Shown here: one piece after another, positions 7,867-31,566 of the stretch | How the letters are laid out: each line of letters begins with the position of its first letter | How positions within the stretch are numbered: the first letter of the stretch is position 1 | IMG/VR virus record: IMGVR_UViG_3300046002_004709 | Location: 1-31,566 of that record | Length of the DNA stretch: 31,566 nucleotides | From: a virus | Strand: one strand, 5' to 3' | Translations under genes and position numbers: made by a program | The notes under the pieces: model-generated | Databases searched by the model: none | Told to the model about the DNA's origin: nothing | The model's input: only the letters and a program-made list of their open reading frames with translations

Positions 7867-8406
7867 ATGTTAAATAGAATCATAAAAAAAGTATTACTTG
7901 AAGAAATCAAACTAATTGAAAGTGCGGACAAAAGAGGACACGTACTATTCTCAAAAGTTATTGACAATAAATTGGTCAGATTAATTTCATCAAGACACCA
8001 AAGAAGTGATAGGTTTGGTAATTTATCATACGAAGAGTCAGTTGAAAAATACGAAGATTTTTTACAAAAACGCAGATCTAAATTTCAAGTACCACCAAGA
8101 ATTGGGGTTCCTGATAAAATGATTGTTAATGTTTTTAGTGAGAATCTTAATAAAATTCAGGACAAATTCAAAGACTTAAACAAAAGTAAAATCATTTTTG
8201 TAAAAGAAAGGGAAGACAATGATGATGATCCGGTATTTGATAATATTGAAATAATAATAGACAAAGAAGGTTCAAACTATACAATAGTAACATCCGCATT
8301 TTCTGAAGACGGAGAATATTTAAAAAATTATAAAACAACTGAACAACAAGATAGAGTTATGTTAGAAATGTATAACGTATCTATAATGCCCGTTGTTTTC
8401 TTATAA
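7867..8406 (+). CDS. Hypothetical protein with N-terminal packaging-type tag
   Basis: A 179-aa protein. The first 13 residues, MLNRIIKKVLLEE, form a basic amphipathic helix ending in LLE, matching the tag seen on several other proteins here. The next part is charged (RLISSRHQRSDRFGNLSYEE). The C-terminal half alternates short strands and helices (DNIEIIIDKEGSNYTIVTSAF). No recognised catalytic motif. It is isolated between an upstream terminator with its own TATTTATA and the downstream membrane-protein unit. I infer a late virion-associated protein; function unknown. Confidence 0.7.
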   Translation: MLNRIIKKVLLEEIKLIESADKRGHVLFSKVIDNKLVRLISSRHQRSDRFGNLSYEESVEKYEDFLQKRRSKFQVPPRIGVPDKMIVNVFSENLNKIQDKFKDLNKSKIIFVKEREDNDDDPVFDNIEIIIDKEGSNYTIVTSAFSEDGEYLKNYKTTEQQDRVMLEMYNVSIMPVVFL

Positions 8407-8434
8407 CCCCTAATGGTTGTCAGTAATCGTTTTT

Positions 8435-8455
8435 TATTTATCTTTTATATTTATC
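8435..8455 (+). promoter_or_regulatory. Two TATTTATC copies upstream of the lysis/membrane unit
   Basis: TATTTATC at 8435-8442 and again at 8448-8455, 13 bp apart, 17 nt before ATG 8473. Each is one base off the octamer found at other late-type starts. They lie in the only gap before the 8473-12333 gene run, so they are its most likely promoter region. Confidence 0.35.
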
Positions 8456-8472
8456 TATTATAGTTTAATAAT

Positions 8473-9678
8473 ATGAAAGATAAATTTTTACCTTGGTTTT
8501 TGTTATTTTGTGCGTTGGGGTTGTCGGGTACTGCCGCATACTATAGCGTTGTTGGTTTATCCATTGTTTTTATTGGTGTTGCGTTACCCGTTATTATTAT
8601 GGGGTCATTTCTTGAAATATCAAAAATTGCAATAGCAACATACCTACACGATAAATGGAAAGAAACTTATGGGGTATTAAAAATTTACCTAACTATCGCA
8701 CTTGTAACATTATCTTTAATCACGTCGCTTGGTATATACGGGCTTTTGAGTACAGGATTCCAAGGAAACATCGCAAAACTTGAAATCAATGAAAAACAAA
8801 TCAAAAACATTGAAGTTAAAAAAGAAAGATTTGAAGAGGTTAAAGGTGAATTAACAAAAGAAAAAAATACTTTAGACGGAGATATCACAAAACTAAGAGA
8901 AGGTCTATCTAATAACACAACAATCCAATCTGTGGACGGTAGAACAGGTCAAGTTATAACGAGAGCAAATAATGCAAATAGAAAGTCGTTTGAAACTCAA
9001 TTATCCCAAGCGCAAGTAAGACGAGATACCATATCAAAAAGAATTGACAATATGAATGACAGTATCACTAAACTTGATATTGAAATATTGGATATGGAAT
9101 CTGATGAAATATCAGGAAGTGAGTTGGGGGCAATTAAATATGTTAGTGAACTTCTTGATTGGGATATTAAAAGAGTTGCGAACCTTTTTATTTTGATTTT
9201 AATATTTGTATTTGACCCATTGGCTATTACATTAGTTATTGCAACAAACCAAGCGTTTAAACTAAAAAGAAAAGATGAGGATACCCCACAAGTACCCCGT
9301 AATTACCCCGTAAGTACCCCACAAGTTAAAGATACCGACCAAGTAATTGATGATACAAATGTTGAAAAACTAACAAATTTACAAAAGGAAGAGAATAGAG
9401 TTTGGGATATGGTTAGGAAATTAAAAGATGAAGGTAAATTACCACCACCTCCTACTGAAGAAGAACTTGCGGAAGAACCAACGGCAATTGCTTTTACCCC
9501 ATATGAAATTGAAGAAGATTTAGAAACACCTGAAGACACACTAATATCTGATGGGTTAGAAGAGGTAAATGAAATAGTAGAAGAAGAGATGATAATACAA
9601 GAATCCATACCCCAAACAAATAAAAGATTATCATACACTAAAAAAAATGGAGGATCTTTACGAATTAACAGGTTTTAA
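8473..9678 (+). CDS. Membrane protein with large coiled-coil domain
   Basis: A 401-aa protein. There are three N-terminal membrane segments (about 5-27, 29-50 and 66-92). A long charged coiled-coil region follows (about 97-215, e.g. EINEKQIKNIEVKKERFEEV), then a fourth membrane segment (about 232-255, LFILILIFVFDPLAITLVIA). The cytosolic tail carries a Pro/Thr/Val repeat from tandem ACCCC-rich codons (about 270-290) and acidic proline-rich stretches. The topology places the coiled coil on one side of the membrane between TM3 and TM4. It heads a run containing the amidase-fold and spanin-like genes, so a role in lysis or envelope contact is plausible but unproven. Confidence 0.75.
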   Translation: MKDKFLPWFLLFCALGLSGTAAYYSVVGLSIVFIGVALPVIIMGSFLEISKIAIATYLHDKWKETYGVLKIYLTIALVTLSLITSLGIYGLLSTGFQGNIAKLEINEKQIKNIEVKKERFEEVKGELTKEKNTLDGDITKLREGLSNNTTIQSVDGRTGQVITRANNANRKSFETQLSQAQVRRDTISKRIDNMNDSITKLDIEILDMESDEISGSELGAIKYVSELLDWDIKRVANLFILILIFVFDPLAITLVIATNQAFKLKRKDEDTPQVPRNYPVSTPQVKDTDQVIDDTNVEKLTNLQKEENRVWDMVRKLKDEGKLPPPPTEEELAEEPTAIAFTPYEIEEDLETPEDTLISDGLEEVNEIVEEEMIIQESIPQTNKRLSYTKKNGGSLRINRF

Positions 9679-10240
9679 CCATATAGGTAAAAATGAAAAC
9701 AAAACCTTAATAATACTTTCAGACACAAGAAGAGAGTGTAAAAATTATATCAATTCCCTTAAGTACCGATATAATAATAAAAATCCATACTTACCAAATT
9801 ACGTAATATCAAAAAAAGGGGAAACATATAAAATAACTAACCCAGACTGCTATTCAAATTTTATGGAAAACATTAATGTTGATAAAAAATCAATAATTAT
9901 ATCTTTAGAAAATTTAGGGTGGTTAAAGAAAATTCCATTAAATAATACATACACAAACTGGGTTGGTGATATTTATAATAAAGAAGTTTTTGAAAAGAGG
10001 TGGAGAGACCACGTTTTTTGGGATATTTATACTGAAGAACAAATAAAAACACTTTCCACTTTAATATTAAAACTTTGTAATGAGTTCAATATACCTTTAA
10101 ATTTTGTAAATACAAATGTAAAATTTGACGGTATTGAAAACTTTAAAGGAATTGCTTCAAGAAGTAATTTTGATTTTATATATAAAGACGTAAATCCGTC
10201 ATTTGATTTTAAACTTTTAAAACAAAAAATAGAAAAATGA
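9647..10240 (+). CDS. N-acetylmuramoyl-L-alanine amidase-fold protein, zinc ligands apparently lost
   Basis: A 197-aa protein with the outline of an Amidase_2/PGRP domain. It has NYVISKKGETYKI (51-63), a central strand SIIISLENLGWL (82-93), then YTEEQIKTLSTLILKLCNEF (128-147), and finally GIASRSNFDF...DVNPSFDFKLL (169-191). In active enzymes the first strand ends in a His (xHHT-type) and the loop before the D-P/N-P motif carries a second His (SHS-type). Here these read LSDT (24-27) and SRSN (171-174). It overlaps the membrane-protein gene by 32 nt and precedes the spanin-like genes. It could be a peptidoglycan-binding or regulatory relic of an endolysin. The fold call is from memory of motif order. 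Confidence 0.6.
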   Translation: MEDLYELTGFNHIGKNENKTLIILSDTRRECKNYINSLKYRYNNKNPYLPNYVISKKGETYKITNPDCYSNFMENINVDKKSIIISLENLGWLKKIPLNNTYTNWVGDIYNKEVFEKRWRDHVFWDIYTEEQIKTLSTLILKLCNEFNIPLNFVNTNVKFDGIENFKGIASRSNFDFIYKDVNPSFDFKLLKQKIEK

Positions 10241-10791
10241 TTAACGAATATGATGAATTAAAATCCCTTTTGAAGAAGTCAAAAATGTTAATGGAACAAA
10301 AAGGTCCAATTAACATGGGTAAGAGTATTGAAGACAGGATTGAAGACGATGAAAATGATTATCCTGAAGAAACTCAACAATCTGATTACAACCCTAAAAA
10401 GGATAAAAGCAAAACCTATAGAATATCTGGAGGTCTTTTAACTTTAAACGGTAAGGATAAAAAGGATGTAGAACTAACAACTGAAGAAAAAACGGCATTT
10501 CAAGAAACAATGGATGAGTTTGTGACAGATGTTTCTGACCTTTCAGATTTTGGAATTTTAAACGTTTATGAAAACTCTGTAGAGTGGAGTGGTAAAATAT
10601 TGGATGCCGATATTGAATTCTTTTATACCATAGGAGAAGAAACTGGGGTTTACGTGAACGGAGATATGATTAAATTAGATGAAAAACTCGTTGAACTAAT
10701 CAATAAACTAACATCTTTCTATGAGAAGTTTAAATCAAAATGGGCTAAAGTAATATCTATTAGAAAGAAAACCATAGATAAAAAAATGTAA
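10237..10791 (+). CDS. Hypothetical protein, possible virion protein
   Basis: A 184-aa protein coupled to the amidase-fold gene by ATGA. The N-terminus, NEYDELKSLLKKSKMLMEQKG, is helical and basic and holds LME, a possible prohead-protease-type LxE site. A charged disordered linker follows (about 30-60). The C-terminal domain (about 62-184) is alpha/beta, with YRISGGLLTLNG, LTTEEKTAFQETMDEFV and VYENSVEWSGKILDADIEFF. No recognised family. Its position suggests late expression. Confidence 0.65.
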   Translation: MINEYDELKSLLKKSKMLMEQKGPINMGKSIEDRIEDDENDYPEETQQSDYNPKKDKSKTYRISGGLLTLNGKDKKDVELTTEEKTAFQETMDEFVTDVSDLSDFGILNVYENSVEWSGKILDADIEFFYTIGEETGVYVNGDMIKLDEKLVELINKLTSFYEKFKSKWAKVISIRKKTIDKKM

Positions 10792-10795
10792 TAAT

Positions 10796-11149
10796 ATGAA
10801 AAATCTAATATTAAAAAATTATAAAAGTATACTTTATCTTGTTATAGGAATTGGATTAGTCTATTTGATGGTTTTAATTTTTACACCTAAACCCGAAATG
10901 TCAGAGTTAGATAAGTATAAATTGGACCAATTAAATAAAGACATCAACGAGATTAAAAACAACCAAATTAAGTTGGACAGCACAATAACGAGGTATGAAA
11001 AAGAAATCAGTAAAATTGACTCAACTATTGCGACTGTAAGAAATCAAAAAACTATCATTAAAGAATATTACAAAGAAAAGGGAGAACAAATAAACGGAAT
11101 GAAACCATCACAAATAGACAGTTTATTCCATAAAAGATATAACTATTAA
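10796..11149 (+). CDS. Single-pass membrane coiled-coil protein (i-spanin-like)
   Basis: A 117-aa protein with a short basic N-terminus, one membrane segment (about 12-30, ILYLVIGIGLVYLMVLIF) and then a long charged coiled coil (about 38-95). This N-in, one-TM, periplasmic coiled-coil layout is that of inner-membrane spanins (Rz type), which join inner and outer membranes in the last step of lysis. It directly precedes a signal-peptide protein of matching design. Spanins are recognised by layout rather than sequence, so the call is inference. Confidence 0.5.
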   Translation: MKNLILKNYKSILYLVIGIGLVYLMVLIFTPKPEMSELDKYKLDQLNKDINEIKNNQIKLDSTITRYEKEISKIDSTIATVRNQKTIIKEYYKEKGEQINGMKPSQIDSLFHKRYNY

Positions 11150-11150
11150 A

Positions 11151-11558: not shown

Positions 11559-11806
11559 TGGCTCTTAGTTCTACAGATAAAAAAGAAATTGAATCTATAG
11601 TTAAAAAAGAAATAAAAGACTTTTTAAACACCACTACAGTTGTAAAATTTGAAGACAGAATTATTGAAAAAATAAAAAATGATATGTCTAAAGGAAAACT
11701 AAGAGGAGACATCAATGAGTACATTAGAAAAGCATTTGTTGAATTTTACCATTTTCTTTGGTCTAAACGAAGTACTTGGGAAAGTACAATTAAAAATATT
11801 AAATAA
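11558..11806 (+). CDS. Small conserved-type phage protein
   Basis: An 82-aa, mostly helical protein: KKEIESIVKKEIKDFLN, then FEDRIIEKIKNDM, then RKAFVEFYHFLWSKRSTW. The stop and start codons are shared with both neighbours (TAATG at each end), so it is tightly coupled in the operon. No recognised domain. The aromatic C-terminal block looks conserved and structured, possibly a virion component. Confidence 0.65.
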   Translation: MALSSTDKKEIESIVKKEIKDFLNTTTVVKFEDRIIEKIKNDMSKGKLRGDINEYIRKAFVEFYHFLWSKRSTWESTIKNIK

Positions 11807-12333
11807 TGGTAACTAAAGAGACTATAAGAAAATATATAACAGAAGCACTTAAAAAGGCTAAAGAAGTGGAGACTAAAGAAGCGACCGCAACTGGTGGCGG
11901 ATATGGATATTCTTCACCTGCGTTTAGTATGTGGTCTGAAGATGATGAGGCAAAGGCCGAATACAAAAGAATGGAAGACACCCAAGAAGAATTTACTGAA
12001 GCAACAACATCAGCATCAGTTGGGGCATATGATGTACCAGGTTTTCAGGACGTTAATATGAAGGGAAACACACTAAAAGGAAAGGGAACATCTTGGAAAA
12101 AATCACAAATACCCGGAGGATCATTTGTTGATATAGACCCAAAATGTAAAACTTTTCCATATTGTAATCAGGGGAATACAGGTGCCGTTAGATACAGAAA
12201 ATCAAAACCAAAAAACAAAAAAAGTAAATCATCACCGATGAATGAGGCAATATATAACGTATCATTAAAAACAGGATTAAGTGAAATAGAAATAAAAAAT
12301 ATTATATTATCACATATTGATAGTAATTTATAA
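11806..12333 (+). CDS. Putative virion protein with tag and EAT...GxY..P repeats
   Basis: A 175-aa protein. The N-terminus MVTKETIRKYITEALKK fits the proposed packaging tag, with ITE as the protease-type site. Two imperfect repeats follow: EATATGGGYGYSSPAF (about 25-40) and EATTSASVGAYDVPGF (about 65-80). The middle is Gly/Ser/Thr-rich with CKTFPYCNQGNTGAVRYRKS. A basic linker and a helical C-terminus end it. The low-complexity design and repeated Glu-Ala segments fit a scaffold or internal head protein cut by a prohead protease. It is the last gene before a TATTTATG element. Confidence 0.6.
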   Translation: MVTKETIRKYITEALKKAKEVETKEATATGGGYGYSSPAFSMWSEDDEAKAEYKRMEDTQEEFTEATTSASVGAYDVPGFQDVNMKGNTLKGKGTSWKKSQIPGGSFVDIDPKCKTFPYCNQGNTGAVRYRKSKPKNKKSKSSPMNEAIYNVSLKTGLSEIEIKNIILSHIDSNL

Positions 12334-12342
12334 AGTATTAGA

Positions 12343-12350
12343 TATTTATG
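12343..12350 (+). promoter_or_regulatory. TATTTATG element 3 nt before a start codon
   Basis: One base from the TATTTATA octamer, with the same 3-nt spacing to ATG 12354 as at 7856. The ATG inside the element (12348) is an alternative start but would break the pattern. Confidence 0.4.
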
Positions 12351-12353
12351 ATT

Positions 12354-13679
12354 ATGAATAGAGAAATTTTAAAAGTAGTAAATAGAGTATTATCTGAAGA
12401 GATTTCAGGTAGAATCTCAAACGTTAAACGTAGAATTTTTGAAGAAAAATCTATGTGTTCCGAGTGCGGTGTAGGTACAATGTATGAAGGAGAATGTTCA
12501 GAATGTGGATATACTAATGAAGGAGACATCCAAGAATTAGGTGGTATGGACGACGGACACCCAAGATTTGGTAAAAGACGTTTACCTAAAAGAATGAGTC
12601 CTGAAGATATTGAAAAAATCCTTAGAGGAGACGATGAGGACGATATTTCATTTGAAGATGACAATATTCCAAACATTAAAAAAATGAAACGTCACAGAGA
12701 TAATAGAGATCAAGATGAAATTAACGAGTACTCACCAAAAGATGAAATTGAAAATAATTTTTCATCGTATGAGGAATTTTGTTCTCAGATATATAATATG
12801 GATGATCCAAGATGTGAAGGATATTACCGTTATACTTCTAAACTTGATGACGAAAAAAGTTATAAAAATGATGGGGAAATAGATGAAAGATTGTACGGTA
12901 ATCAAAAAAGAATTGACAAAAACAAAAACGGAAGAATTGATAGAGAAGATTTTAAAATGTTAAGAAAAGAAATGTATGAATTAACATTGGATGACACTAA
13001 CGAGAAGTTTATTTTTACCGAAAATGAAATTATTGGAATAATTGAAAATGTTATTTTAGAGGAAAAGAAAAAGTCTAAATCTAAAACAAAATCAAAAGAC
13101 CCAATTAAGTTAACAAAATCCAACCAAGAAAAATCTAAAAAAGAAAATGATGATAACATTAATATGGTGGTTAAAATGATGAAAGACCAACTTAAAAATC
13201 AGTCAAAAGGGGAATATGAAATGTACCCCAAACATTTTCCAAAAGGTAACGGTGAATTAGCTAAAATGGATAAAATGGCTTATGTACCTTCAGATTCTGT
13301 TGAAGAATATATTAAGAATTTTACTGCAGCAGGTTTAGAAAATCTTTATTTTGGTGATGGAATTAAACCTGACGAACAATGGATGACAGATAACATTGAA
13401 GGTTCTTCAAGGACAGGAAACAACCCTAAATGGGCAAATGCTGTTGAAACACCAGTAAACAAAGAAAGAAACACAATTAGAAAAAATAACATGTTAGCGA
13501 AATTAAAACAAAAGGCGTATAACAAGGCACCACAACCTGTTGTTTCAGACAATGGTGGATCAAAATCAGATAAGGCTAGTAAGATTATGATGAATTTAGA
13601 GTCTACAGAGAGTAAAAAAGTTTTAACGGATGTAGATAAAATGAAATCTTTAATGGGATATACTAAAAATACACAATAA
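12354..13679 (+). CDS. Tagged multidomain virion-type protein with zinc ribbon and EF-hand-like loop
   Basis: A 441-aa protein. The start is the packaging-type tag MNREILKVVNRVLSEE. A zinc ribbon follows, with CSECGVG and CSECGYT knuckles (about 32-52). Then come acidic linkers and a calcium-binding loop DKNKNGRIDREDF of EF-hand/dockerin type (about 189-201). A second tag-like segment FTENEIIGIIENVILEEKKK lies near 220-240, followed by a long Lys-rich linker. The C-terminal part is globular, ending DKMKSLMGYTKNTQ. Two LxE-type sites flanking modules suggest a precursor cut during head maturation. I infer an internal head protein. The frame also offers ATG 12348. Confidence 0.65.
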   Translation: MNREILKVVNRVLSEEISGRISNVKRRIFEEKSMCSECGVGTMYEGECSECGYTNEGDIQELGGMDDGHPRFGKRRLPKRMSPEDIEKILRGDDEDDISFEDDNIPNIKKMKRHRDNRDQDEINEYSPKDEIENNFSSYEEFCSQIYNMDDPRCEGYYRYTSKLDDEKSYKNDGEIDERLYGNQKRIDKNKNGRIDREDFKMLRKEMYELTLDDTNEKFIFTENEIIGIIENVILEEKKKSKSKTKSKDPIKLTKSNQEKSKKENDDNINMVVKMMKDQLKNQSKGEYEMYPKHFPKGNGELAKMDKMAYVPSDSVEEYIKNFTAAGLENLYFGDGIKPDEQWMTDNIEGSSRTGNNPKWANAVETPVNKERNTIRKNNMLAKLKQKAYNKAPQPVVSDNGGSKSDKASKIMMNLESTESKKVLTDVDKMKSLMGYTKNTQ

Positions 13680-13699
13680 TATATATTTCACTTTTTAAA

Positions 13700-14461: not shown

Positions 14462-14462
14462 T

Positions 14463-14651: not shown

Positions 14652-14652
14652 A

Positions 14653-18311: not shown

Positions 18312-19679
18312 ATGGCAATTAAGTTTACAAACATTTTAAGAGATCTTATCATTGAAAGTTCAAGATTTCAAGTATTATTTGACAAATACGTAAAACCTAA
18401 TAAAGAAACAAGAAAGGCTATAATGCCATTCCCTATCCTATTTGAAATTATCGCAGCTGACCCAACATCAAGAATACCTGATGGTATGACTGCAGAGACA
18501 GCAAAACCTGAAGATATGGAGAAAGTAAAAATTGGAAAGTATGTCCAATGGATGCTTAAAAATTATGCAACACCTAATATTGACTTAGAAAGTGGTATTA
18601 CCGACCCTAATAGTCCGGCAGTGAAACAGGCAATTAAACAATATCAAGATTTGTTCTTGGAGGACATTTATAAAATCACTCAGGACTTAATGAAGTTTGA
18701 AAGATTTAAAAACAGATTACCACAAGAGGCTAGAGATATTAATAAATTAACTCCTGAGACTCTATATGATCAAGTTAAAGATTTCTCATTAGAAAAAACT
18801 AAAGCAACTAAGGATGAAAAGGTTGAAGCATCAAGAACATACCAACATCCAGGAGCTGACATTGTTTATCGTGGTTCTGAGTGGACAGTTGCTCGTATTT
18901 CAGACCAAGGACAATTAGGTAAAAACGCCGCTTGTTTCTATGGTGGACAACATAAAGAACCACAAAGAGGTGAAACAAGATGGTGTACATCATCTCCAGG
19001 TTTAACTTGGTTTGATAGATACATTAAAGATGGTCCTTTATATGTTGTTATCCCTAACTCACCACGTAAATTTACGGGTAGCATGGATATTGGTGAAGAA
19101 TCTGGACTTCCAGCATACAGAATCCAATTCCACTTCCCATCTAATCAGTTTATGACACCTGACGATAGAAATATTGACTTGGTTGAGTTCTTGAATCAAC
19201 AGGAAACAGGACTTAAAGAATACTTTAAACCTGAATTTATGAAAGGTTTGGCATCTAAAGGTGGAACTAAAGTGTCTGTTAATTACCCTGGTGATTCGGC
19301 ATCTAAATTCATTGCTCTTTATGGTTTTGAAGAATTCTTTGAAACATTACCTGAAAATATTGAAAGACTTGAATTTACTAAAAAAGGTGGTCCTGACATT
19401 GCACTTAACATTCCTAATAGTATTGGTAAATTTAAAAACTTAACCGCTTTACACCTTGTTGGATGTGTTAAAAATTTACCAGAATCTATTTGTCAACTTG
19501 AAAAACTACAGTTCCTTTCTTTACCTGATAACCCTCAGTTGGAGATGTTACCAAGTTGTTTAGCGAATCTTAAAAGATTAACTGTTATCAACTTGAAAAA
19601 TAGTAATTCAAGTAGTGTGATTCCTGATTCATTGAAACAAAAAATGGATTCAGACGACGCATTCCACTTATTTGCTTAA
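18312..19679 (+). CDS. Tagged leucine-rich-repeat protein, putative virion-delivered protein
   Basis: A 455-aa protein. The N-terminus MAIKFTNILRDLIIESSRF resembles the packaging tag, with IIE as the LxE-like site. A helical domain (about 20-170) follows, then a conserved-looking alpha/beta block (about 180-300) containing YRGSEWTVARISDQ, NAACFYGGQHKE, TRWCTSSPG and GPLYVVIPN. Three or four leucine-rich repeats close the protein (about 350-440; e.g. LPESICQLEKLQFLSLPDN). LRRs bind proteins. The RWCT...YVV pattern recalls a domain in other phage proteins of unknown role. It has its own TATTTATT element, and an AT-rich hairpin follows. I infer a packaged or late protein that contacts host proteins. 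Confidence 0.7.
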   Translation: MAIKFTNILRDLIIESSRFQVLFDKYVKPNKETRKAIMPFPILFEIIAADPTSRIPDGMTAETAKPEDMEKVKIGKYVQWMLKNYATPNIDLESGITDPNSPAVKQAIKQYQDLFLEDIYKITQDLMKFERFKNRLPQEARDINKLTPETLYDQVKDFSLEKTKATKDEKVEASRTYQHPGADIVYRGSEWTVARISDQGQLGKNAACFYGGQHKEPQRGETRWCTSSPGLTWFDRYIKDGPLYVVIPNSPRKFTGSMDIGEESGLPAYRIQFHFPSNQFMTPDDRNIDLVEFLNQQETGLKEYFKPEFMKGLASKGGTKVSVNYPGDSASKFIALYGFEEFFETLPENIERLEFTKKGGPDIALNIPNSIGKFKNLTALHLVGCVKNLPESICQLEKLQFLSLPDNPQLEMLPSCLANLKRLTVINLKNSNSSSVIPDSLKQKMDSDDAFHLFA

Positions 19680-23430: not shown

Positions 23431-24027
23431 TTAATTGTTTATTATCTCAAACTTATGACCATATAAGGTCTTTCTTATTGATCCGTTATTTAGTTTTCCG
23501 TTATTTATTTTTTTACCTCTTAATGCTGATGATATTTTTTGTCTAACGTGTTTAGGTTGTCCAGAAGAAAACCCATTAGAAATTAAATAGTTCGCACCCT
23601 CAACTAGAGACTCAAATATAAATATCTCACCAGTTTGAATATTTGTAAATGAAAATTTAGAAAAGTTGTTATTTTTAATTAAATTATATTTTGATAACGA
23701 TATTTTAACCTCAAGATTGTATGTGTTTCTTCTAAATTCATTCACCATAGCCAAATTATAACCATAATTTAAATCATTAGATTTATATTGTAATATGTAA
23801 AAATTTTCTCGGTCTATTAATTGATTTTTGTTACACCCCTCAATTATTTCAAAACCAAAGAATTCTTCACCGTATTTATTAAACGAATTTTGTAAATATT
23901 GGTTATCGTGAGAGTTAGAGGACAACATCCAAAAATGTTTGTATTTACGATTTTGTAAATTTAGAGAACTACCAATGTAAGTTTTACCATTAATTTTATT
24001 AAAAATTTTATAAATACCACATCCCAT
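23431..24027 (-). CDS. GIY-YIG homing-type endonuclease
   Basis: A 198-aa protein. The N-terminal GIY-YIG domain is clear: GCGIYKIFNKINGKTYIGSS, then NRKYKHFW, then LQNSFNKYGEEFFGFEII and DRENFYILQYK with the metal-binding Glu. The C-terminal half (FTNIQTGEIFIFESLVEGAN and QKISSALRGKK) fits NUMOD-type DNA-binding modules. Free-standing enzymes of this kind spread by cutting allelic DNA. I start it at ATG 24027, because TATTTATA sits 3 nt before that codon on the minus strand; the longer frame from 24054 would translate through the element. Confidence 0.88.
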   Translation of the reverse strand: MGCGIYKIFNKINGKTYIGSSLNLQNRKYKHFWMLSSNSHDNQYLQNSFNKYGEEFFGFEIIEGCNKNQLIDRENFYILQYKSNDLNYGYNLAMVNEFRRNTYNLEVKISLSKYNLIKNNNFSKFSFTNIQTGEIFIFESLVEGANYLISNGFSSGQPKHVRQKISSALRGKKINNGKLNNGSIRKTLYGHKFEIINN

Positions 24028-24082: not shown

Positions 24083-25291
24083 ATGAATTTAAAAAACATA
24101 ATTAGACGGGTTTTAAAAGAACAAGATGAAGAATGGGTTAATATTGACCCTGAATATTATATTGATCTTTTAAAGTATGTTAATGGTGATGGTGCACTCA
24201 TTAAGAGATTTCCACAATATAGAGGTAAAAAAATTAGAATTACCGGTGACTTAGACTTAAATGGTTATAAAGACATATCAAATATTGATAGCATTGATTA
24301 TGTTGATGGTGGTTTAAGTTTTGATAGTACAAATATATCTTATTTTGATAAAAATAAAGTTAAGGGTAGATTTAGTTATTGGTACAGTACAATGCACAGT
24401 ATTGAAAAAAAGAGAATTTTAAACCAAAAGTTAGCCACTCTTGATGGGTACAGACAAGAGGGTGAATGGGACGTTAATAACAATGATGAAGAATCAAATG
24501 AAACTGAAGCTCTCTTTATGCATTTAAATGAAAATGGTAATGTAAGTAAATATGAAAACGACGAAGGGGAAGAAGTAGAAGAAGATAAATATTTTATTTG
24601 GAAAACTAAGTACACATCCTATGGAAATTCATCAATGTTTGAATGGTTAGGAGATGATATGTTTGAAAGTGAATGGATTGTAATTCCTGATGATAAAATT
24701 CATTACGCAGCAACTGAAGCATTAAAACAACGAATAGATGAGATGGGTTATGACTCGTTTAATGATTATGTTTGGGAAAATAATTTAGACACTAAAGAAG
24801 TTGAGTCTTGGTTATATGAAAATTACGAAGATTATATAAGAAGCCAACCTGAAGATTGGGATATAACAAAAGAACTTTCATCACAACAAGAAAAGTATGT
24901 TGAAATTTATGAACAAAAAATAGAAAGGTTAAATTCTAGATTAGAAACCGAAGAATTAACAGACGAAGAAACTGAAGAAATTGAAGACGAAATATCAAAT
25001 ATTGAAGATATTGTTGAAGAAATAAAAGAAAACCCTGAAGGTGAATATAGTGAGGACGAAATTGAAGATAGAATACAATCACTTGTCGATGATTATTCTA
25101 ATGATTTCCCAAGTTATTTAAGAGATCACGGATATGATGCTAAATATCTTTTAGAATTTGTTGATATTGATGGTGTTTGTGAAGACATCATAAGTAATGA
25201 TGGTTATGGTAATATTTTAAACGGGTACGATGGAAATGACGATGAATATAAGGTAAATGATAAGTGGTATCACGTAATGAGACATAATTAA
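24083..25291 (+). CDS. Tagged acidic protein with LRR-like N-terminal strands
   Basis: A 402-aa acidic protein. It opens with the packaging-type tag MNLKNIIRRVLKEQDEE. Residues about 45-95 form a short leucine-rich or beta-solenoid stretch (ITGDLDLNGYKDISNI, VDGGLSFDSTNISYF). The middle and C-terminus are very rich in Glu and Asp, with coiled-coil-like helices (EQKIERLNSRLETEELTDEE). Aromatic acidic repeats (WLYENYEDYI) lie just before them. No enzyme motif. It has its own TATTTATA and is followed 1 nt later by another tagged protein. I infer an internal virion protein; the strong acidity might mimic DNA, which is speculative. Confidence 0.65.
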   Translation: MNLKNIIRRVLKEQDEEWVNIDPEYYIDLLKYVNGDGALIKRFPQYRGKKIRITGDLDLNGYKDISNIDSIDYVDGGLSFDSTNISYFDKNKVKGRFSYWYSTMHSIEKKRILNQKLATLDGYRQEGEWDVNNNDEESNETEALFMHLNENGNVSKYENDEGEEVEEDKYFIWKTKYTSYGNSSMFEWLGDDMFESEWIVIPDDKIHYAATEALKQRIDEMGYDSFNDYVWENNLDTKEVESWLYENYEDYIRSQPEDWDITKELSSQQEKYVEIYEQKIERLNSRLETEELTDEETEEIEDEISNIEDIVEEIKENPEGEYSEDEIEDRIQSLVDDYSNDFPSYLRDHGYDAKYLLEFVDIDGVCEDIISNDGYGNILNGYDGNDDEYKVNDKWYHVMRHN

Positions 25292-25292
25292 T

Positions 25293-25697
25293 ATGAAACA
25301 TATAATCAAAAAAATATTAAAAGAAGAAAGTCTTAAACAAACTTTAAAACAACAAGTTAAAGAATTTGGTTGGAAAGGTACCGCGGAATTGGTTAATGGA
25401 TCCGAAAACTTATTGGAATTGATACACATAAATAACCCAATGGATTTTCTTAATCTTTATAACGATCTTGACGTTTTTGATAGTGAAAAATTTATTTTAT
25501 TTGGACGTAGAGAAAATGAAGAACTGATAACTTACTATAAAACACATAAAGATGTTTACATTGATTATAATCAAATATGGTCAGTTTTAGAAGAAGGTTT
25601 TGGGCTTAGCTATGATGAAACTCAGTCACTTATAGAAACGTGGTTGGGTGACATATACAATTTAAGGGGAATCAAAGTCTATGAAAATGCAGAATAG
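25293..25697 (+). CDS. Tagged small conserved-type protein
   Basis: A 134-aa protein starting with the clearest tag copy, MKHIIKKILKEESLKQ. The body, VKEFGWKGTAELVNGSENLLEL, MDFLNLYNDLDVF and WSVLEEGFGLSYDETQSL, is a pattern I recall as conserved in related phages. It ends with WLGDIYNLRGIKVYENAE and a TAG stop. Beyond the stop the same frame stays open for about 20 codons and repeats WLGDVYNL, so the 3' end looks rearranged. It shares the transcript of the previous tagged gene. Confidence 0.65.
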   Translation: MKHIIKKILKEESLKQTLKQQVKEFGWKGTAELVNGSENLLELIHINNPMDFLNLYNDLDVFDSEKFILFGRRENEELITYYKTHKDVYIDYNQIWSVLEEGFGLSYDETQSLIETWLGDIYNLRGIKVYENAE

Positions 25698-25731: not shown

Positions 25732-25777
25732 AAAGAAATATAATTTACACTATGTTATAATTTATTATTATTTAGTG

Positions 25778-26527: not shown

Positions 26528-26550
26528 TTTATTATTATTTAAATAAAATT

Positions 26551-26697
26551 ATGGAAACAATTGAATTGTCAGTTATTAAAAAAATGGTAAAAGAAAATCC
26601 TAATGATATGGAGTTAGGTAAAAAAATTAGACAAATGATTTTAGAAATTAAAAATCAAAAATATGGGATTCAACAAGAGGATACTCAAAAAGGATAA
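26551..26697 (+). CDS. 48-aa small hypothetical protein
   Basis: A 48-codon frame starting METIELSVIKKMVKENPNDM. It is basic and helical (ELGKKIRQMILEIKNQKYG). It overlaps the next gene by 35 nt. The upstream spacer is AT-rich with AAATAAAATT before the ATG, like other starts here. No family recognised. Confidence 0.5.
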   Translation: METIELSVIKKMVKENPNDMELGKKIRQMILEIKNQKYGIQQEDTQKG

Positions 26698-26845
26698 TAT
26701 TATTAATAATATTGATAGGTTACCGATTTACCTATCGGCAGATGCAATCATTACAAGCGATGACTTCTCAAGGGAAGTTTATAAAATGTATTGTGATGGA
26801 AAAACAGAGGATGAAATCATAAAATATATAAACAAAAATAAATGA
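26663..26845 (+). CDS. 60-aa small hypothetical protein
   Basis: A 60-aa protein starting MGFNKRILKKDNIINN. The second half (YLSADAIITSDDFSREVYKMYC, then EDEIIKYINKNK) looks like a compact helical domain. Its stop overlaps the glutamine synthetase ATG (ATGA), so the two are translationally coupled. Function unknown. Confidence 0.55.
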   Translation: MGFNKRILKKDNIINNIDRLPIYLSADAIITSDDFSREVYKMYCDGKTEDEIIKYINKNK

Positions 26846-28131
26846 AAATCAAATTAGAATACGTTTGGTTGGATGGATATACGCCAGAACCAAACTTAAG
26901 AAGTAAAGTAAAAATTGTAGAATACAATGATATTAAAAATGCGTTTTTGGATGGTAAATTTCCTGAATGGAACTTTGACGGGTCATCAACAAAACAAGCA
27001 GAAACAGGTAGTTCAGATTGTATTTTAAAACCTGTTAAACACTACATAACGGATGGGTTACTAAATACGATTTATATCCTTTGTGAAGTTATGAACCCAG
27101 ATGGTACACCACACAAATCAAATTACCGTTCACAATTAGGTGATGAACAAGAAGATTTGTGGTTTGGATTTGAACAAGAATACTTTATTCAAAAAGGGAT
27201 CGGTGAAGGAGTTTTAGGTCACGACAGAAAGTATTTGGACCCACAAGGTAAGTATTACTGTGGTGTAGGACAAAACGTTGTTGGAAGGGACTTTGTTGAA
27301 AGACATACTAATATGTGTTTAAATTATGGGATTGATATTACTGGAACAAATGCTGAGGTTGCGCTTGGACAATGGGAGTATCAGGTTTTTTCAAAAGGTA
27401 AACTAAATGCTGGAGATGACCTATGGATGTCACGATACTTCCTATACAAACTTTCTGAAGAATATGGTTACGCAATTACAATCCACCCAAAACCACTACA
27501 ATATGGAGAATGGAACGGTTCAGGACTTCATACAAACTTCTCAAATGATTATATGAGAAATGTTGGTGGAGAAGAGTATTTTAAATCATTATTTGCAAGT
27601 TTTAACGCAAGACATACTGAACATATTAAACATTATGGTTCACATAATGAATTAAGATTGACAGGTAATTTTGAAACACAATCAATTGATAAATTTAGTT
27701 GGGGGGTTTCAGATAGAGGAGCATCAATTAGAGTACCACAACAAACAGCAAAAGATTGGAAAGGTTATGTTGAAGATAGAAGACCTGGTTCAAACGCGGA
27801 CCCATATAAAATTATCTACCAAATTGAAAAGTCAATTAATAATGCTGAAACAATTGGTGATATTAAACATATGATGAATTTTAAAATTGATATTGATAAA
27901 TTGGATGGTAAGTATGAAGGGATTTTAAGTAATGATGAATTACTTAAAGAATATAAAAACGATGAGGACTATGAACTTGATGTTGAAACAATGGAAGGGT
28001 CTAATATACCAACAGAAGACATTAACTTCAATCCACAACTACAATCAGAATTAATATCAGAATTAAGAAATAAATTGCAAAATAGCAAAATACCTAAAGC
28101 TCTTAAAAACGCAATGTTATATGGAAAATAA
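26842..28131 (+). CDS. glnA: Glutamine synthetase, type II (GSII)
   Basis: A 429-aa ATP-dependent ammonia-glutamate ligase of the eukaryote-like class II. The N-terminal beta-grasp part has KLEYVWLDGYTP and FPEWNFDGSST (40-50). Catalytic parts include WFGFEQEYF (107-115), NGSGLHTNFS (225-234), HYGSHNELRLTGNFET (264-279) and DRGASIRVP (291-299). YVEDRRPGSNADPY is at 309-322. All substrate-binding blocks appear intact. Usual GSII proteins are about 340-370 aa; here about 95 residues follow the last core motif, including an acidic stretch and a basic end KIPKALKNAMLYGK. It would reprogram nitrogen metabolism during infection. A complete GS is rare in phages. Confidence 0.93.
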   Translation: MKIKLEYVWLDGYTPEPNLRSKVKIVEYNDIKNAFLDGKFPEWNFDGSSTKQAETGSSDCILKPVKHYITDGLLNTIYILCEVMNPDGTPHKSNYRSQLGDEQEDLWFGFEQEYFIQKGIGEGVLGHDRKYLDPQGKYYCGVGQNVVGRDFVERHTNMCLNYGIDITGTNAEVALGQWEYQVFSKGKLNAGDDLWMSRYFLYKLSEEYGYAITIHPKPLQYGEWNGSGLHTNFSNDYMRNVGGEEYFKSLFASFNARHTEHIKHYGSHNELRLTGNFETQSIDKFSWGVSDRGASIRVPQQTAKDWKGYVEDRRPGSNADPYKIIYQIEKSINNAETIGDIKHMMNFKIDIDKLDGKYEGILSNDELLKEYKNDEDYELDVETMEGSNIPTEDINFNPQLQSELISELRNKLQNSKIPKALKNAMLYGK

Positions 28132-28144
28132 TAACAATATAAAA

Positions 28145-28507
28145 ATGATAGAATTTCAACAATTTGAACCACTTAAATCAAATAGATGGTTAATAAGAAC
28201 GGAAGGATTAGAAATCAACCCTTTTTTATTTAGAAAATATAAAATATTTAATGATGGAAAAGAAATCATATTTACCACAGAATTTATTGAAACGGTAAAT
28301 AACACATATAACCCAAAAGATTTATTAAATATTGTTGGTATTACCATTGAGTATTTGGATCCAACAGGGGTTGCGGTTCAGAAACTTAAATTTGATGTTA
28401 AGGGGTTGAACTTTAAAATTAAACAATCATATAGTAAAGATACTTTACAAACTACAAAACTTAGATTTGTTGTTAATTCAGATACATTAACTTTAATGAA
28501 TAAATAA
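28145..28507 (+). CDS. Conserved-type hypothetical protein, possible structural protein
   Basis: A 120-aa protein from MIEFQQFEPLKSNRWLIRTE; ATG 28121 overlaps the GS end and adds 8 residues. It is almost all beta: NPFLFRKYKIFNDGKEIIFTT, VGITIEYLDPTGV, LKFDVKGLNFKIK, LRFVVNSDTLTL. The FEPLKSNRW opening and YLDPTGVxVxxLxFDVKG block recall small beta proteins in T4-like Bacteroidota phages, perhaps tail or neck components. That assignment is weak. The DUF3310 remnant begins 1 nt after its stop. Confidence 0.6.
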   Translation: MIEFQQFEPLKSNRWLIRTEGLEINPFLFRKYKIFNDGKEIIFTTEFIETVNNTYNPKDLLNIVGITIEYLDPTGVAVQKLKFDVKGLNFKIKQSYSKDTLQTTKLRFVVNSDTLTLMNK

Positions 28508-28508
28508 T

Positions 28509-28544
28509 ATGGAAAAAGAACAAGTAAACCACCCCCAACATTAA
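28509..28544 (+). pseudogene. Remnant of a DUF3310 gene start
   Basis: An 11-codon frame MEKEQVNHPQH followed by TAA. It aligns with EKEMVNHPDH at the start of the intact DUF3310 gene at 29306. Most codon differences are synonymous (GTA/GTT, AAC/AAT, CAC/CAT). The HNH endonuclease gene lies between the remnant and the intact copy, so it is probably a scar of the endonuclease insertion. Confidence 0.6.
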
Positions 28545-28570
28545 AAAGTTTTGTTGTATGTGGTAAAAAT

Positions 28571-28608
28571 CGTAGTATGGGGATATTTATATATAAACCC
28601 ATACTATG
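28571..28608 (+). promoter_or_regulatory. Hairpin sequestering the HNH start codon
   Basis: Left arm 28571-28581 pairs with right arm 28598-28608 over 11 bp, with one G-U wobble. The right arm includes the ATG of the HNH gene (28606-28608). The 16-nt loop holds TATTTATA. Read-through mRNA would hide the start codon; an mRNA starting from the loop element would lack the left arm. Confidence 0.65.
28584..28591 (+). promoter_or_regulatory. TATTTATA inside the HNH hairpin loop
   Basis: Exact octamer in the hairpin loop, 14 nt before ATG 28606. A start about 6 nt downstream would give an mRNA containing only the right arm. Confidence 0.5.
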
Positions 28609-29301
28609 AAAAAACTTGAATTAAAAATTGGTGATAAATATCATTATTGGACTATATTAGAATTATCTGACTTTGAAAGTAAAAAAGGTGAAAGATATTA
28701 TAAATGTAAGTGTGATTGTGGAACAATAAAGGATGTTAGAGCTCATCACTTGAAAAATGAAAAATCAAAATCTTGTGGTTGTTTTGTTAAAGAAACAATG
28801 TCAAAAATAAAAAGAATTGATATTGAAGGTCAAAAATTTGGTAAATTAACCCCTATAAAAAGAGTTCACCATAATAATAGTAAACATTTAAATAATTGGT
28901 TATGTAAGTGTGATTGTGGTAACGAAGTAATTGCGTCTACGGGTGCGTTAAGAAGAAATAAACATTTATCTTGTGGGTGTATAAGGAAAGGTGAGGAAAG
29001 CCACAATTGGAAAGGGGGGAAAATTACAACACCATCAGGGTATGTTAAAAAATATGCACCTGAACACCCAAAAAATATAATTGGTTATGTTTTGGAACAT
29101 AGATTAATTATGGAAGAGATGGTTGGAAGATATTTAGAACCAAATGAGGAAGTTCACCATAAAAATGGTATTAGAAATGATAATTCTAAAGAAAACCTTG
29201 AATTATGGGTTAAATCCCAACCACCAGGACAAAGAGTTGACGATATGGTTGATTTTTGTTATAATTTCTTAAAGAAATATAAACCTGAAATATTAAAATA
29301 G
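28606..29301 (+). CDS. HNH homing-type endonuclease with two zinc-ribbon repeats
   Basis: A 231-aa protein. Two similar N-terminal repeats each hold a four-cysteine zinc site: YKCKCDCGTIKDV...SCGCF (about 32-62) and WLCKCDCGNEVIAS...SCGC (about 99-126). These modules bind DNA in many phage HNH proteins. The C-terminal HNH domain follows: GYVLEHRLIMEEMVGRYL, then EVHHKNGIRNDNSKENLEL (about 185-203), carrying the His-His and Asn-His-type catalytic residues. The enzyme would nick or cut DNA at a homing site. Its start codon lies in a hairpin, and a DUF3310 remnant lies upstream, the marks of a mobile gene under late control. Confidence 0.9.
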   Translation: MKKLELKIGDKYHYWTILELSDFESKKGERYYKCKCDCGTIKDVRAHHLKNEKSKSCGCFVKETMSKIKRIDIEGQKFGKLTPIKRVHHNNSKHLNNWLCKCDCGNEVIASTGALRRNKHLSCGCIRKGEESHNWKGGKITTPSGYVKKYAPEHPKNIIGYVLEHRLIMEEMVGRYLEPNEEVHHKNGIRNDNSKENLELWVKSQPPGQRVDDMVDFCYNFLKKYKPEILK

Positions 29302-29305
29302 TAAA

Positions 29306-29536
29306 ATGTCAGAAGAAAAAGAAATGGTTAATCATCCCGACCATTACCAATTTGGTGAAAATAATGAATATGAGGCAATCAAAGTAATTGATGCTTGGGA
29401 ATTGGGATTCTCACTTGGTAATACTGTTAAGTACATCTCAAGAGCTGGAAAAAAAGAAAAAGATAAAGAATTACAGGACCTTAAAAAGGCGTTATGGTAT
29501 TTACAACACCATATTGAAACATTAGAGAAAAAATGA
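29306..29536 (+). CDS. DUF3310 family protein
   Basis: A 76-aa protein. The DUF3310 signature is clear: VNHPDHYQFG near the start, then EAIKVIDAWELGFSLGNTVK, YISRAGKKEKD and LQDLKKALWYLQHHIE. The family is widespread in phages, sometimes labelled nucleotide kinase-like, but its function is unknown. It starts 4 nt after the HNH stop and is coupled to the methylase gene by ATGA. A decayed copy of its first codons lies upstream of the HNH gene. Confidence 0.85.
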   Translation: MSEEKEMVNHPDHYQFGENNEYEAIKVIDAWELGFSLGNTVKYISRAGKKEKDKELQDLKKALWYLQHHIETLEKK

Positions 29537-30378
29537 TAGAAACAGGAAAAATAATAAATGGTGATTGTATTGAGGTAATGAAAAGTTTACCTGAAGGGGA
29601 AATAGATCTTCTTGTTTCATCACCCCCATACAATGTGGGTATTAATTATGACGCACATATAGATACATTAGACATGGATGTTTATTGGGAATGGACTAAA
29701 GAGTGGTTATCCGAAGCTTACAGAATTTTGAAGGACGATGGTAGAGTTGCTATAAACATCCCTTACGAAACCAATGTACGTGAACGAGGTGGTAGAGTGT
29801 TTTTTGTATCTGAATTTTATCAAATTATGAAACAAGTTGGGTTTAAATTTTTTGGTATTGTGGATTTGGAGGAACAATCACCTCATCGTAGTAAGACAAC
29901 TGCGTGGGGATCTTGGATGAGTCCGTCAAGTCCATATATTTATAACCCAAAAGAGTGTGTAATACTTGCATACAAAAAATACCACATTAAAAAGGTTAAA
30001 GGGGAACCTCAGTGGAAAGGAACACCAACTGAAATTATTCAGGAGGATGGAACCATAAAAAAGAAAGTAGTATATGAGGAAGAAGATAAGAAAGAGTTTA
30101 TGGAACTTGTTTTTGGTCAGTGGAATTACTTTGCAGATACTAAATCACTCACCAAGGCAACGTTCTCAATGGACATCCCAACTAAAGCGATCAAGATATT
30201 GTCCTACAAAAACGATGTAATTCTTGACCCGTTTGCGGGTAGCGGAACAACATTAGTTGCTGCTGAGATACTTGGAAGAAGATGGTTAGGTATTGAACTA
30301 TCACCAAATTATACGGAGGTGGCTAAAACAAGGGTTGAATATTTTAAAAACCTACAAACAGTATCAGAGGAAATCTAA
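29533..30378 (+). CDS. Site-specific DNA methyltransferase (N4/N6, SPPY type)
   Basis: A 281-aa amino-methyltransferase. The catalytic motif IV SSPPYNVGI (about 29-37) comes first and the AdoMet motif I LDPFAGSGTTLVAAE (about 230-244) near the end, the permuted beta-class order. It transfers a methyl group to adenine N6 or cytosine N4. A long insert (about 150-195) may form part of the target-recognition domain. It is coupled to DUF3310 by ATGA. With the Dam-type gene at 17421, the phage carries two distinct methylases and no visible partner restriction enzyme, consistent with evasion of host restriction. Confidence 0.9.
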   Translation: MIETGKIINGDCIEVMKSLPEGEIDLLVSSPPYNVGINYDAHIDTLDMDVYWEWTKEWLSEAYRILKDDGRVAINIPYETNVRERGGRVFFVSEFYQIMKQVGFKFFGIVDLEEQSPHRSKTTAWGSWMSPSSPYIYNPKECVILAYKKYHIKKVKGEPQWKGTPTEIIQEDGTIKKKVVYEEEDKKEFMELVFGQWNYFADTKSLTKATFSMDIPTKAIKILSYKNDVILDPFAGSGTTLVAAEILGRRWLGIELSPNYTEVAKTRVEYFKNLQTVSEEI

Positions 30379-30397
30379 GAGTAATCTTGGATTTTTT
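30371..30397 (+). terminator. Intrinsic terminator after the methylase
   Basis: AAATCTAAG pairs with CTTGGATTT (9 bp with one G-U) around a loop AGTAAT (30380-30385), followed by TTT. The left arm contains the methylase stop codon. It lies just before the TATTTATA that serves the next gene. Confidence 0.7.
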
Positions 30398-30408
30398 GTT
30401 TTTAATGG

Positions 30409-30416
30409 TATTTATA
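30409..30416 (+). promoter_or_regulatory. TATTTATA element 4 nt before a start codon
   Basis: Exact octamer right after a terminator and 4 nt before ATG 30421, the same arrangement as at 7824-7867. Confidence 0.55.
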
Positions 30417-30420
30417 TATT

Positions 30421-31029
30421 ATGAAAAAAAATGTTATTAAAAATGTCAACTTAATACTTGAAGAAAGATATTTAAAACAAAAATCAATTATTATTGAAAG
30501 TTTAGAACCACCTAAAAGTGAAGACGAATATATATCAATAATTAAAAATAATGGATTCACACAAGTAAGTTCAAAGGACCCGAACACTGTTTGGAAATAT
30601 GAAAATAGTAAAACACAAGTTTTTACATATAAAACAAAAGACGGTAAATTATATGTAAGTCAAAGAGGGTTTTATAACCCAAAAACTGATTTACATATTC
30701 CCACAACTACTACATCTTTTAAAATACCTGTAACTACTGAATATCAAAAATATTGGGATAGGGCCGTTAATGACTACATACAAAGTAAAAACATTTATGA
30801 CCCGTCTTGGTCATTAGAAAATATTAATGACCAAATAAAAAAAATTGAAGATAATCTTAAAATAACTAACGATAAGGATATTGTTACAGTTGGTGGGGTT
30901 TTTATCAGAAATATTAAATCAGTTGAAGAAAATATTAATAAATGGTTGATTGATCCTGATAAACAGATGGCAAAAAATAACCTAAACCAGTTAAAGGGAT
31001 TGGCAAAAGAAAAAGGATTATCCGTATGA
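30421..31029 (+). CDS. Tagged hypothetical protein
   Basis: A 202-aa protein starting MKKNVIKNVNLILEERYLKQ, a tag-like helix with LILE as the putative protease site and a further IIIES about 10 residues on. The body has FTYKTKDGKLYVSQRGFYNP, a Thr/Pro stretch, and the helical ENINDQIKKIEDNLKI. No enzyme motif. It has its own TATTTATA after a terminator and is coupled to the DHH gene by ATGA, so the two form a late unit. Confidence 0.65.
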   Translation: MKKNVIKNVNLILEERYLKQKSIIIESLEPPKSEDEYISIIKNNGFTQVSSKDPNTVWKYENSKTQVFTYKTKDGKLYVSQRGFYNPKTDLHIPTTTTSFKIPVTTEYQKYWDRAVNDYIQSKNIYDPSWSLENINDQIKKIEDNLKITNDKDIVTVGGVFIRNIKSVEENINKWLIDPDKQMAKNNLNQLKGLAKEKGLSV

Positions 31030-31566
31030 AATATATAATTAAAGAATCAGGAATTAGAGATATAAATCAAATAAAAAAAAGATATCCTAAAGCTAAAATT
31101 TACTTTCACCAAGATTTAGATGGAGTAACAACAGCCCTTGGTATGAAACATTATTTAGAGCAAAACGGGATTAAAGTTGTTGATGCTGAGACTATACAAT
31201 ACGGAGATAAAGAATTTGCAATTAAAAAAACGGATGCTGGTGGTGATATTATGCCTGTACTTGTGGATTTTGCTCACGGGAAACCAATGTTTGTAATACA
31301 TACAGACCATCACGATAGTCAGGCTGGGGTTGAACCTGGCACCGCAACTAATTTTAGACCGTCAAGATCTAACGTTGAAACAATATCACAAGTAGTTTCA
31401 CCAAAAGAAATTTTTCCTTTTGATGATATTACTTTAATATCAACTGTGGACTCAGCCAATTTCTTGGCCCATAATATTACACAGGAAATGGTAATGAACT
31501 ATTTGTTTAAATTTGATAAGGATAATAGTTTAAAATCTAACAAAATGTTAATGGGACTTGTCACTA
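31026..31566 (+). CDS. DHH-family phosphoesterase, N-terminal part
   Basis: The first 180 codons of a protein cut by the window end. YFHQDLDGVTTALGMKHYLE (about 27-46) is the first DHH-superfamily motif (D-x-D-G). PVLVDFAHGKPMFVIHTDHHDSQ contains the second and third motifs, with the DHH triad near 98-100. STVDSANF continues the family pattern. DHH enzymes are RecJ-type nucleases, nanoRNases or pyrophosphatases; the substrate class cannot be decided here. The N-terminus MKYIIKESGIRD matches a short form of the packaging tag. It is coupled to the preceding tagged gene by ATGA. Confidence 0.8.
   Translation, partial: MKYIIKESGIRDINQIKKRYPKAKIYFHQDLDGVTTALGMKHYLEQNGIKVVDAETIQYGDKEFAIKKTDAGGDIMPVLVDFAHGKPMFVIHTDHHDSQAGVEPGTATNFRPSRSNVETISQVVSPKEIFPFDDITLISTVDSANFLAHNITQEMVMNYLFKFDKDNSLKSNKMLMGLVT

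Follow-up and report, generated by a model that had tools for sequence, protein, structure and literature searches.

Capsid targeting in described phages

In phage T4 the internal proteins IPI, IPII and IPIII and the Alt protein carry a capsid-targeting sequence (CTS), whose [L/I]xE end is the cleavage site for the S77 prohead protease (PMC9026906, PMC3012670, PMC12373910). Alt is cleaved after ITE-6 (PMC5694885), which resembles the MKIIITE/ form of the leader described here (a slash marks a cut site or the end of a leader). Near-N-terminal [LIF]xE sites also occur in T4 gp24 and the core proteins gp22, gp67 and gp68 (LLRE/S, LIAE/A, LFAE/A and LIPE/A). Like the protein encoded at 12354 (see below), these have multiple or internal sites; a non-systematic comparison revealed no homology between them and the tagged proteins. 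The N-terminal 30 residues of phage P1 DarB send this protein, and also a reporter, into the head (PMC9024508). Like the candidate signal considered here, this is an N-terminal capsid-targeting signal, but it has been described for one cargo protein. We know of no sequence shared between the DarB signal and the leader. The jumbo phages phiKZ and SPN3US package and eject many proteins, and S80 cleavage occurs after x-x-Glu (PMC5694885, PMC10052503). In contrast to the I/L-x-E found here, their motif is S/A-x-E, the propeptides are mostly longer than 100 residues and few proteins are cleaved.

The leader shares with the T4 CTS its short length, its N-terminal position on otherwise unrelated, lineage-variable proteins and its [L/I]xE end. 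Unlike the T4 CTS it occurs in several interchangeable forms, and except for the xE end it bears no resemblance to the unrelated T4 sequence MKTYQEFIAE (compared as MKTYQEFIAEA). T4 has a handful of cargo proteins, whereas 18 to 47 tagged genes, coding for candidate cargo, were counted per large genome here. The likeness to the T4 CTS proposed in the earlier note thus extends to function, with the [L/I]xE end and a gp21-type protease, but not to the leader sequence. The comparison is best read as an analogy, in which the leader would work like a CTS without being taken to derive from that of T4. No published description of the leader was found in the literature searched (mainly open-access, with few preprints), and the string RLTESDL did not occur there.

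Tagged genes in the window

The window, i.e. the whole stretch of 31,566 nt that was analyzed, is a 31.6-kb fragment from an uncultured T4-like jumbo phage. It contains 50 predicted genes, has a base composition of 29% GC and has relatives with lengths of up to 229-322 kb; neither prohead protease nor capsid genes are present in it. The hosts of the T4-like jumbo phages bearing leaders are probably Bacteroidota. A 9-column profile was trained on the N-termini of the relatives G001 and G003, and six of the 50 window genes matched it at the N-terminus with a score of at least 12. One of these six, at 26551, was rejected because homology continues straight through the E, and it is probably not a tag. 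The tags in the window are:

7867..7902, + strand: short-form tag MLNRIIKKVLLE/ of a 179-aa orphan protein (7867-8406)
11806..11844, + strand: tag MVTKETIRKYITE/A of a 175-aa protein
12354..12398, + strand: tag MNREILKVVNRVLSE/ of a 441-aa protein with a weak EF-hand match
13005..13061, + strand: internal tag copy KFIFTENEIIGIIENVILE/ inside the 12354 protein
18312..18356, + strand: probable tag MAIKFTNILRDLIIE/ of a 455-aa LRR protein; score 12.0
24083..24121, + strand: short-form tag MNLKNIIRRVLKE/ of a 402-aa orphan protein; score 22.9
25293..25325, + strand: short-form tag MKHIIKKILKE/ of a 134-aa protein, largest tagged family; score 19.6
30421..30462, + strand: possible tag MKKNVIKNVNLILE/ of a 202-aa orphan protein
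31026..31046, + strand: minimal tag MKYIIKE/ of a DHH phosphoesterase, truncated by the contig end

The starts quoted in the earlier note were confirmed at 7867 (MLNRIIKKVLLEE), 12354 (MNREILKVVNRVLSEE), 24083 (MNLKNIIRRVLKEQ) and 25293 (MKHIIKKILKEES), as was the second, internal copy in the 12354 protein (IIGIIENVILEEK, with IIENVILE at 13038). Nearly all aligned orthologues conserve this internal copy, among them two without an N-terminal copy, in which it resembles the long tag (KLSESEMIDLIEKLVRE, RLTESEMISLIEKIVKE). The N-terminal tag E of the 12354 protein is retained in nearly all orthologues behind varying leaders; its Pfam EF-hand match lies below the cut-off. Most orthologues of the 7867 protein keep [ILV]xE with different leaders, e.g. 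MKLLFTLKNIIINE/Q and MNLLSVLKNIVLSE/T. Leaders of 24083 orthologues are MRDFIKNFLLE/, MSGKIILTNKDLHQIVKQIKE/, MKKIKLTEQGLHKLIRTIVE/ and MKKVIRLTESDLIKIIKTKLNE/, and those of 25293 homologues are MKIIITENQYKLIKE/, MNLQENIRRILRE/ and MKIIITE/SQ. When compared with the PDB, a confident structure model of the 25293 protein matched no known fold at E<=0.001.

Judged by their orthologues, two of the four starts first listed as weaker copies, 31026 and 11806, are real, 18312 is likely and 30421 is possible. The E is invariant and P3 is always I or L in 18 DHH orthologues of the 31026 family, which differ in leader length and form; the Pfam DHH match of this protein (2.8e-5) is below the curated cut-off. 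In the 11806 family, the I/L-x-E position is kept in most orthologues (ISE, ITE, VSE, ILE, LFE) and the leaders are variable. The strongly conserved region of this protein begins downstream of the tag, at KEATGxGSAGGF, and the G006 member has ATSTGSSGSF, which is similar to the N-terminus of the mature capsid protein. A G002 LRR relative of the 18312 protein starts with MKLVKILSSVIVE/N, but the 18312 tag is less certain because homology extends beyond the E in closer orthologues. One orthologue of the 30421 protein (L383) keeps LILE, and homology runs on beyond it.

Leader forms and their common end

The leader is a modular element common to many unrelated bodies, with the exchangeable forms MKxLIRHILKE, MKKVIRLTESDLTRIVRRVIKE and MKIIITESQYxxLxE. 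The tag first noticed is thus real, but several interchangeable forms exist instead of one. A DNA scan with a pattern that specified only RLTE[S/R/T]DLTR[I/M] and left the end of the leader free yielded 115 N-terminal ORFs with 83 unrelated body families. All 115 have E at +16 and I, L, V or M at +14 (P3), which does not agree with the S80-type S/A-x-E motif, and conservation falls off directly after the E. The boundary was also kept in 47 of 49 N-terminal ORFs found with a looser pattern in four genomes. A second long form accompanies 73 body families, and a sister form, with E at +20 in 104 of 113 cases, characterises rumen phages of 280-412 kb. Orthologues of the DHH, 24083, 25293 and 12354 families exchange leaders and retain the [I/L]xE boundary. 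At its end the leader therefore has [ILVM]xE with almost no exception, and these are residues required by T4 gp21. About one third of the MKIIITExQ(Y/F) proteins have no second [ILVMF]xE at the usual place and might be cut after IITE.

The gp21-type (S77) prohead protease that the earlier note predicted outside the window is encoded by the relatives. It was present in 11 of 12 and 10 of 11 large contigs, in two sets of contigs found by the tag alone, and alignment with T4 gp21 showed that the His and Ser motifs are retained. The capsid protein of the relatives has LINE/A aligned with the T4 gp23 cut site FLTE/A, and LINE/A is the predicted cleavage site. Thus the leader end agrees both with the T4 gp21 rule (PMC9026906) and with the predicted capsid-protein site of the same phages.

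The tag is very probably a capsid-targeting propeptide, which is cut off by the prohead protease. We infer docking, cleavage, packaging and injection of the tagged proteins: the short basic-amphipathic leader would dock the new protein onto the prohead core, the S77 protease would remove it during head maturation by cutting after [I/L]-x-E, and the body would stay inside the head and be delivered together with the DNA. In this way a numerous and diverse protein cargo is probably packaged in the phage heads and delivered into bacteria. T4 IPI-III and Alt have early-infection roles in anti-restriction and host take-over, and by analogy the cargo probably acts at this stage and in such roles.

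Instead, the leader could be a helix that localises or docks the protein to a different phage structure, such as a replication compartment, membrane, chaperone or tail, and the final E a helix residue without cleavage. In one tagged protein, structure prediction places it at the beginning of a helix that runs into the body (residues 2-25), and the sequence does not reveal the destination. However, the exact agreement of [I/L]xE with gp21 rule and capsid site, the stop of conservation at the E and the same terminal E in all leaders, whose lengths range from 7 to about 22 residues, make this unlikely; a pure docking helix has no need to keep its last Glu invariant while leaving P2 free.

Genome-wide distribution of the leader

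The profile search of relatives suggested in the earlier note found the tag genome-wide on unrelated proteins. The chance level was derived from internal positions and from shuffled N-termini (50 shuffles for the window). For the six matches in the window 0.11 (internal) and 0.14 (shuffled, at most one in 50 shuffles) were expected. In the held-out relatives, 33 of 387 genes of G002 (expected 0.71 internal, 0.86 shuffled) and 11 of 228 genes of G006 (0.26 and 0.34) scored at least 12. Four large relatives have 8-13% of their genes tagged, on dozens of unrelated bodies. Among 139 tagged proteins from five sequences, a set defined by a lower score threshold and including some chance matches, 82 unrelated body families were counted. 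For some tagged genes the location is inside or next to the head-gene cluster; G006 has an example between its protease and capsid genes.

Compared with length-matched other genes, a larger share of the tagged genes is lineage-specific (58% versus 34% found in one genome only), and many tagged genes are clustered. These properties would also fit a recombination cassette, in which a conserved 5' end allows swapping of bodies and the peptide has no role; the T4 ip loci are likewise hypervariable. Synonymous sites of the leader vary while its residues stay fixed, which indicates that selection acts on the peptide. Since non-homologous forms also substitute for one another on orthologous bodies and an invariant [ILV]xE is not predicted by a cassette, this explanation is highly improbable. 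Chance or common ancestry, i.e. lysine-rich amphipathic N-termini favoured by AT-rich genomes with their I, K, N and E residues, or duplicated genes with diverged bodies, is refuted at genome scale and hardly credible, as matches of at least 12 are about 30- to 50-fold fewer in shuffled N-termini and internal positions, the bodies lack mutual similarity and the E is fixed in 115 of 115.

Candidate cargo proteins and occurrence in other genomes

Most of the tagged bodies matched no known family in searches against Pfam, NCBIfam, PADLOC and PHROGs. The few annotations obtained were LRR, EF-hand, zinc ribbon and DUF6576, and matches in PADLOC were weak and single. NCBIfam matches to the type III effectors XopAE, XopAC and XopL (three members each) most likely reflect LRR repeats. 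Since most bodies have no known family, calling the tagged proteins effectors, as in the earlier note, is guesswork in nearly every case. The DHH phosphoesterase is a conserved protein of the freshwater clade and could simply act as an ordinary enzyme inside the cell.

No cultured phage with the long form came up in INPHARED, where a tblastn search with the 22-residue tag gave no match, and 257 Gb of genome sequence from bacteria and archaea contained no match to the freshwater long form. By capsid protein the nearest cultured phages, among them Flavobacterium phage immuto, gave few profile matches (4 of 219 genes at a score of at least 12) and seem to use a leader set peculiar to them. Two Prevotella-group isolates have isolated genes with the sister form, and an S77 protease was not found in their genomes; these genes are not accounted for by packaging alone. 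A wider but doubtful proposal is a widespread non-T4 'packaging code' of freshwater and rumen Bacteroidota giant phages, with about 20-50 proteins per genome loaded via interchangeable leaders and the lone tagged Prevotella-group chromosomal genes possibly entering or sabotaging heads.

If the capsid-targeting reading of the tag is right, one could tell from sequence which proteins uncultured giant phages carry, since a protein starting with the leader would be a candidate for delivery. More than 100 orphan families would gain a testable role at once, and candidates for new anti-defence factors would be picked out. The leaders would also offer short tags to load proteins into the heads of Bacteroidota-infecting phages. 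Which proteins jumbo phages inject would become a single mass-spectrometry question with a precise prediction, namely new N-termini after [I/L]xE.

A modular leader with a fixed end

The window is an entire IMG/VR contig (31,566 bases, G+C 29%) in which no tRNA genes were found. Its SbcC/gp46-like gene (3834-6257) has 256 relatives in IMG/VR, several of them on contigs of 200-300 kb. Four relatives were taken whole (G001, 281 kb; G002, 304 kb; G003, 292 kb; G006, 229 kb), and their genes were predicted with a simple codon-based caller, which gives approximate start sites. By eye, the window also harbors an apparent glutamine synthetase gene (26842-28131, +), with relatives in G002, G003 and G006, and two apparent homing-endonuclease-like insertions, one (23431-24027, -) with a weak match elsewhere in G003 and one (28606-29301, +) without a match in the four relatives.

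The N-termini that the earlier note quoted as a shared tag on unrelated proteins are all present in the window where it had placed them. An N-terminal profile was trained on G001 and G003 and tested on held-out sequences. Of the 387 genes in G002, 33 scored at least 12, as did 11 of the 228 in G006 and 6 of the window's 50; the two controls, internal positions and shuffled N-termini, predict 0.1-0.9 matches per set. With all recognised forms together, 8-13% of the genes in the four large genomes carry the tag. Stripped of the leader, 139 tagged proteins, which include some chance matches because they were collected at a lower threshold of 8, sort into 82 families that show no similarity to one another. 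Tagged proteins are private to one genome in 58% of cases, versus 34% for untagged proteins of the same length range. The leader is modular.

The long form's opening ten residues alone, RLTE[S/R/T]DLTR[I/M], with its end left unspecified, served as the pattern for a scan of IMG/VR, which found at least 116 distinct ORFs. Among the matches listed, 115 have a methionine at most 12 residues upstream. In every one of these 115 N-terminal ORFs, position +14 is I, L, V or M and position +16 is E; conservation drops sharply at the residue directly after the E. Their bodies form at least 83 families. A looser pattern kept this E-end rule in 47 of 49 cases in the four genomes. The synonymous codons of the leader vary, and therefore the constraint acts on the peptide. 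The long-form pattern combined with one partly fixed codon was absent from the bacterial and archaeal genomes scanned, 257 billion bases in total.

Between orthologues, leaders are exchanged while the boundary stays. The DHH phosphoesterase at 31026 begins with MKYIIKE↓SGIRD (arrow, predicted cut), and its orthologue on L383, with an aligned body 96% identical, begins with MKIIITETQYKRLINE↓SGIRD. Other DHH leaders include MRKKLISE, MSKILKE, MKIKKNTQVIIE and MNTVILSESQVDRLVQKLLNE. Across 18 orthologues the E never changes, and the residue two before it is always I or L. Most members of the 24083, 25293, 12354 and 7867 families behave alike. Inside the 12354 protein lies another copy of the tag, similar to the long form and kept in nearly all orthologues, including two without the N-terminal copy. 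A cut there would divide the protein in two, a presumable likeness to the internally cut T4 core proteins.

Different tagged proteins (window 11806-12333; G001 82991-83716; G006 200578-201048) share a start like ATSTGSSGSF after an E, resembling the mature capsid protein start ASSTDSSGSF.

Prohead protease and capsid protein

The gp21-like protease that the earlier note expected outside the window is present in the relatives as an S77 prohead protease, whose gene lies within a few kb of that for a gp23-type capsid protein. It occurs in 11 of 12 large contigs found solely through the tag; the twelfth (109 kb) may be a fragment. In the alignment the protease retains the His and Ser motifs of T4 gp21, and LINE↓A of the relatives' capsid protein lines up with FLTE↓A, where T4 gp23 is cleaved. 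T4 gp21 cleaves after L/I-x-E, and targeting of IPIII requires its first ten residues (PMC9026906); Alt is cleaved after ITE-6 (PMC5694885).

Further forms, hosts and habitats

A sister form, RLTESDLH(R/K/N)I(V/I)KESVNRILKE, is four residues longer than the long form and is carried by phage contigs as large as 412 kb, apparently from rumen and gut samples. It is N-terminal in 114 of 123 cases, has the E at +20 in 104 of 113 and precedes 73 body families; ten of 11 large sister-form contigs harbor the S77 protease. Two more forms, MKIIITExQ(Y/F)xxLxE and FIITEEEKxxI, are also common and N-terminal. The cultured Flavobacterium phage immuto (NC_055915.1) seemingly has its own leader set, MKKSQLRxIIKE and MENFDLKKFLVENKLT (for example at 102294, 102880, 113188, 103806, 117631 and 118632).

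Sister-form matches in GTDB are almost exclusively to assemblies of Prevotella and other Bacteroidales, which points to Bacteroidota as hosts. The nearest capsid proteins of the freshwater clade include those of Flavobacterium and Rhodothermus phages; together with the GTDB matches, we infer that this clade probably infects Bacteroidota as well. The two habitats, freshwater and rumen, are deduced from sample numbers and assembly titles rather than metadata.

Lone genes with the rumen-form leader were located on two isolate chromosomes:

L618, 1104-1367 (-): Segatella baroniae B14
L623, about 6200 (-): Prevotella sp. MA2016

Both are surrounded by ordinary bacterial genes, and the S77 protease was not found in either genome. 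Are these remnants of phages, or do the hosts make them to target phage heads? The capsid-targeting reading leaves them unexplained.

Cargo and predicted function

Family searches found no known domains in most tagged bodies. For the 25293 family the structure model is confident, and no PDB entry matches it at E<=0.001. Weak Pfam matches, and weak fold matches of a moderate-quality model, suggest that the DHH protein is a member of the RecJ/DhhP/PAP-phosphatase superfamily. It was found in six of seven large contigs of the freshwater type and was absent from all six of the rumen type that were compared. One tagged DHH phosphoesterase (L394:11-2224, +) also carries a fused SET domain (Pfam, 1.1e-7), and a DHH orthologue (G025 92655-94058; L645) contains one in-frame TGA, reflecting a sequencing error, a pseudogene or recoding.

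In every testable respect but one, the leader resembles a capsid-targeting propeptide that the prohead protease would cut. The one departure is its sequence, which differs from the T4 capsid targeting sequence; the number of interchangeable forms and the cargo size differ as well. Packaging, cleavage and injection of the tagged proteins are predictions from sequence. If delivered, a DHH-type enzyme could, speculatively, degrade nucleotide signals or DNA ends.
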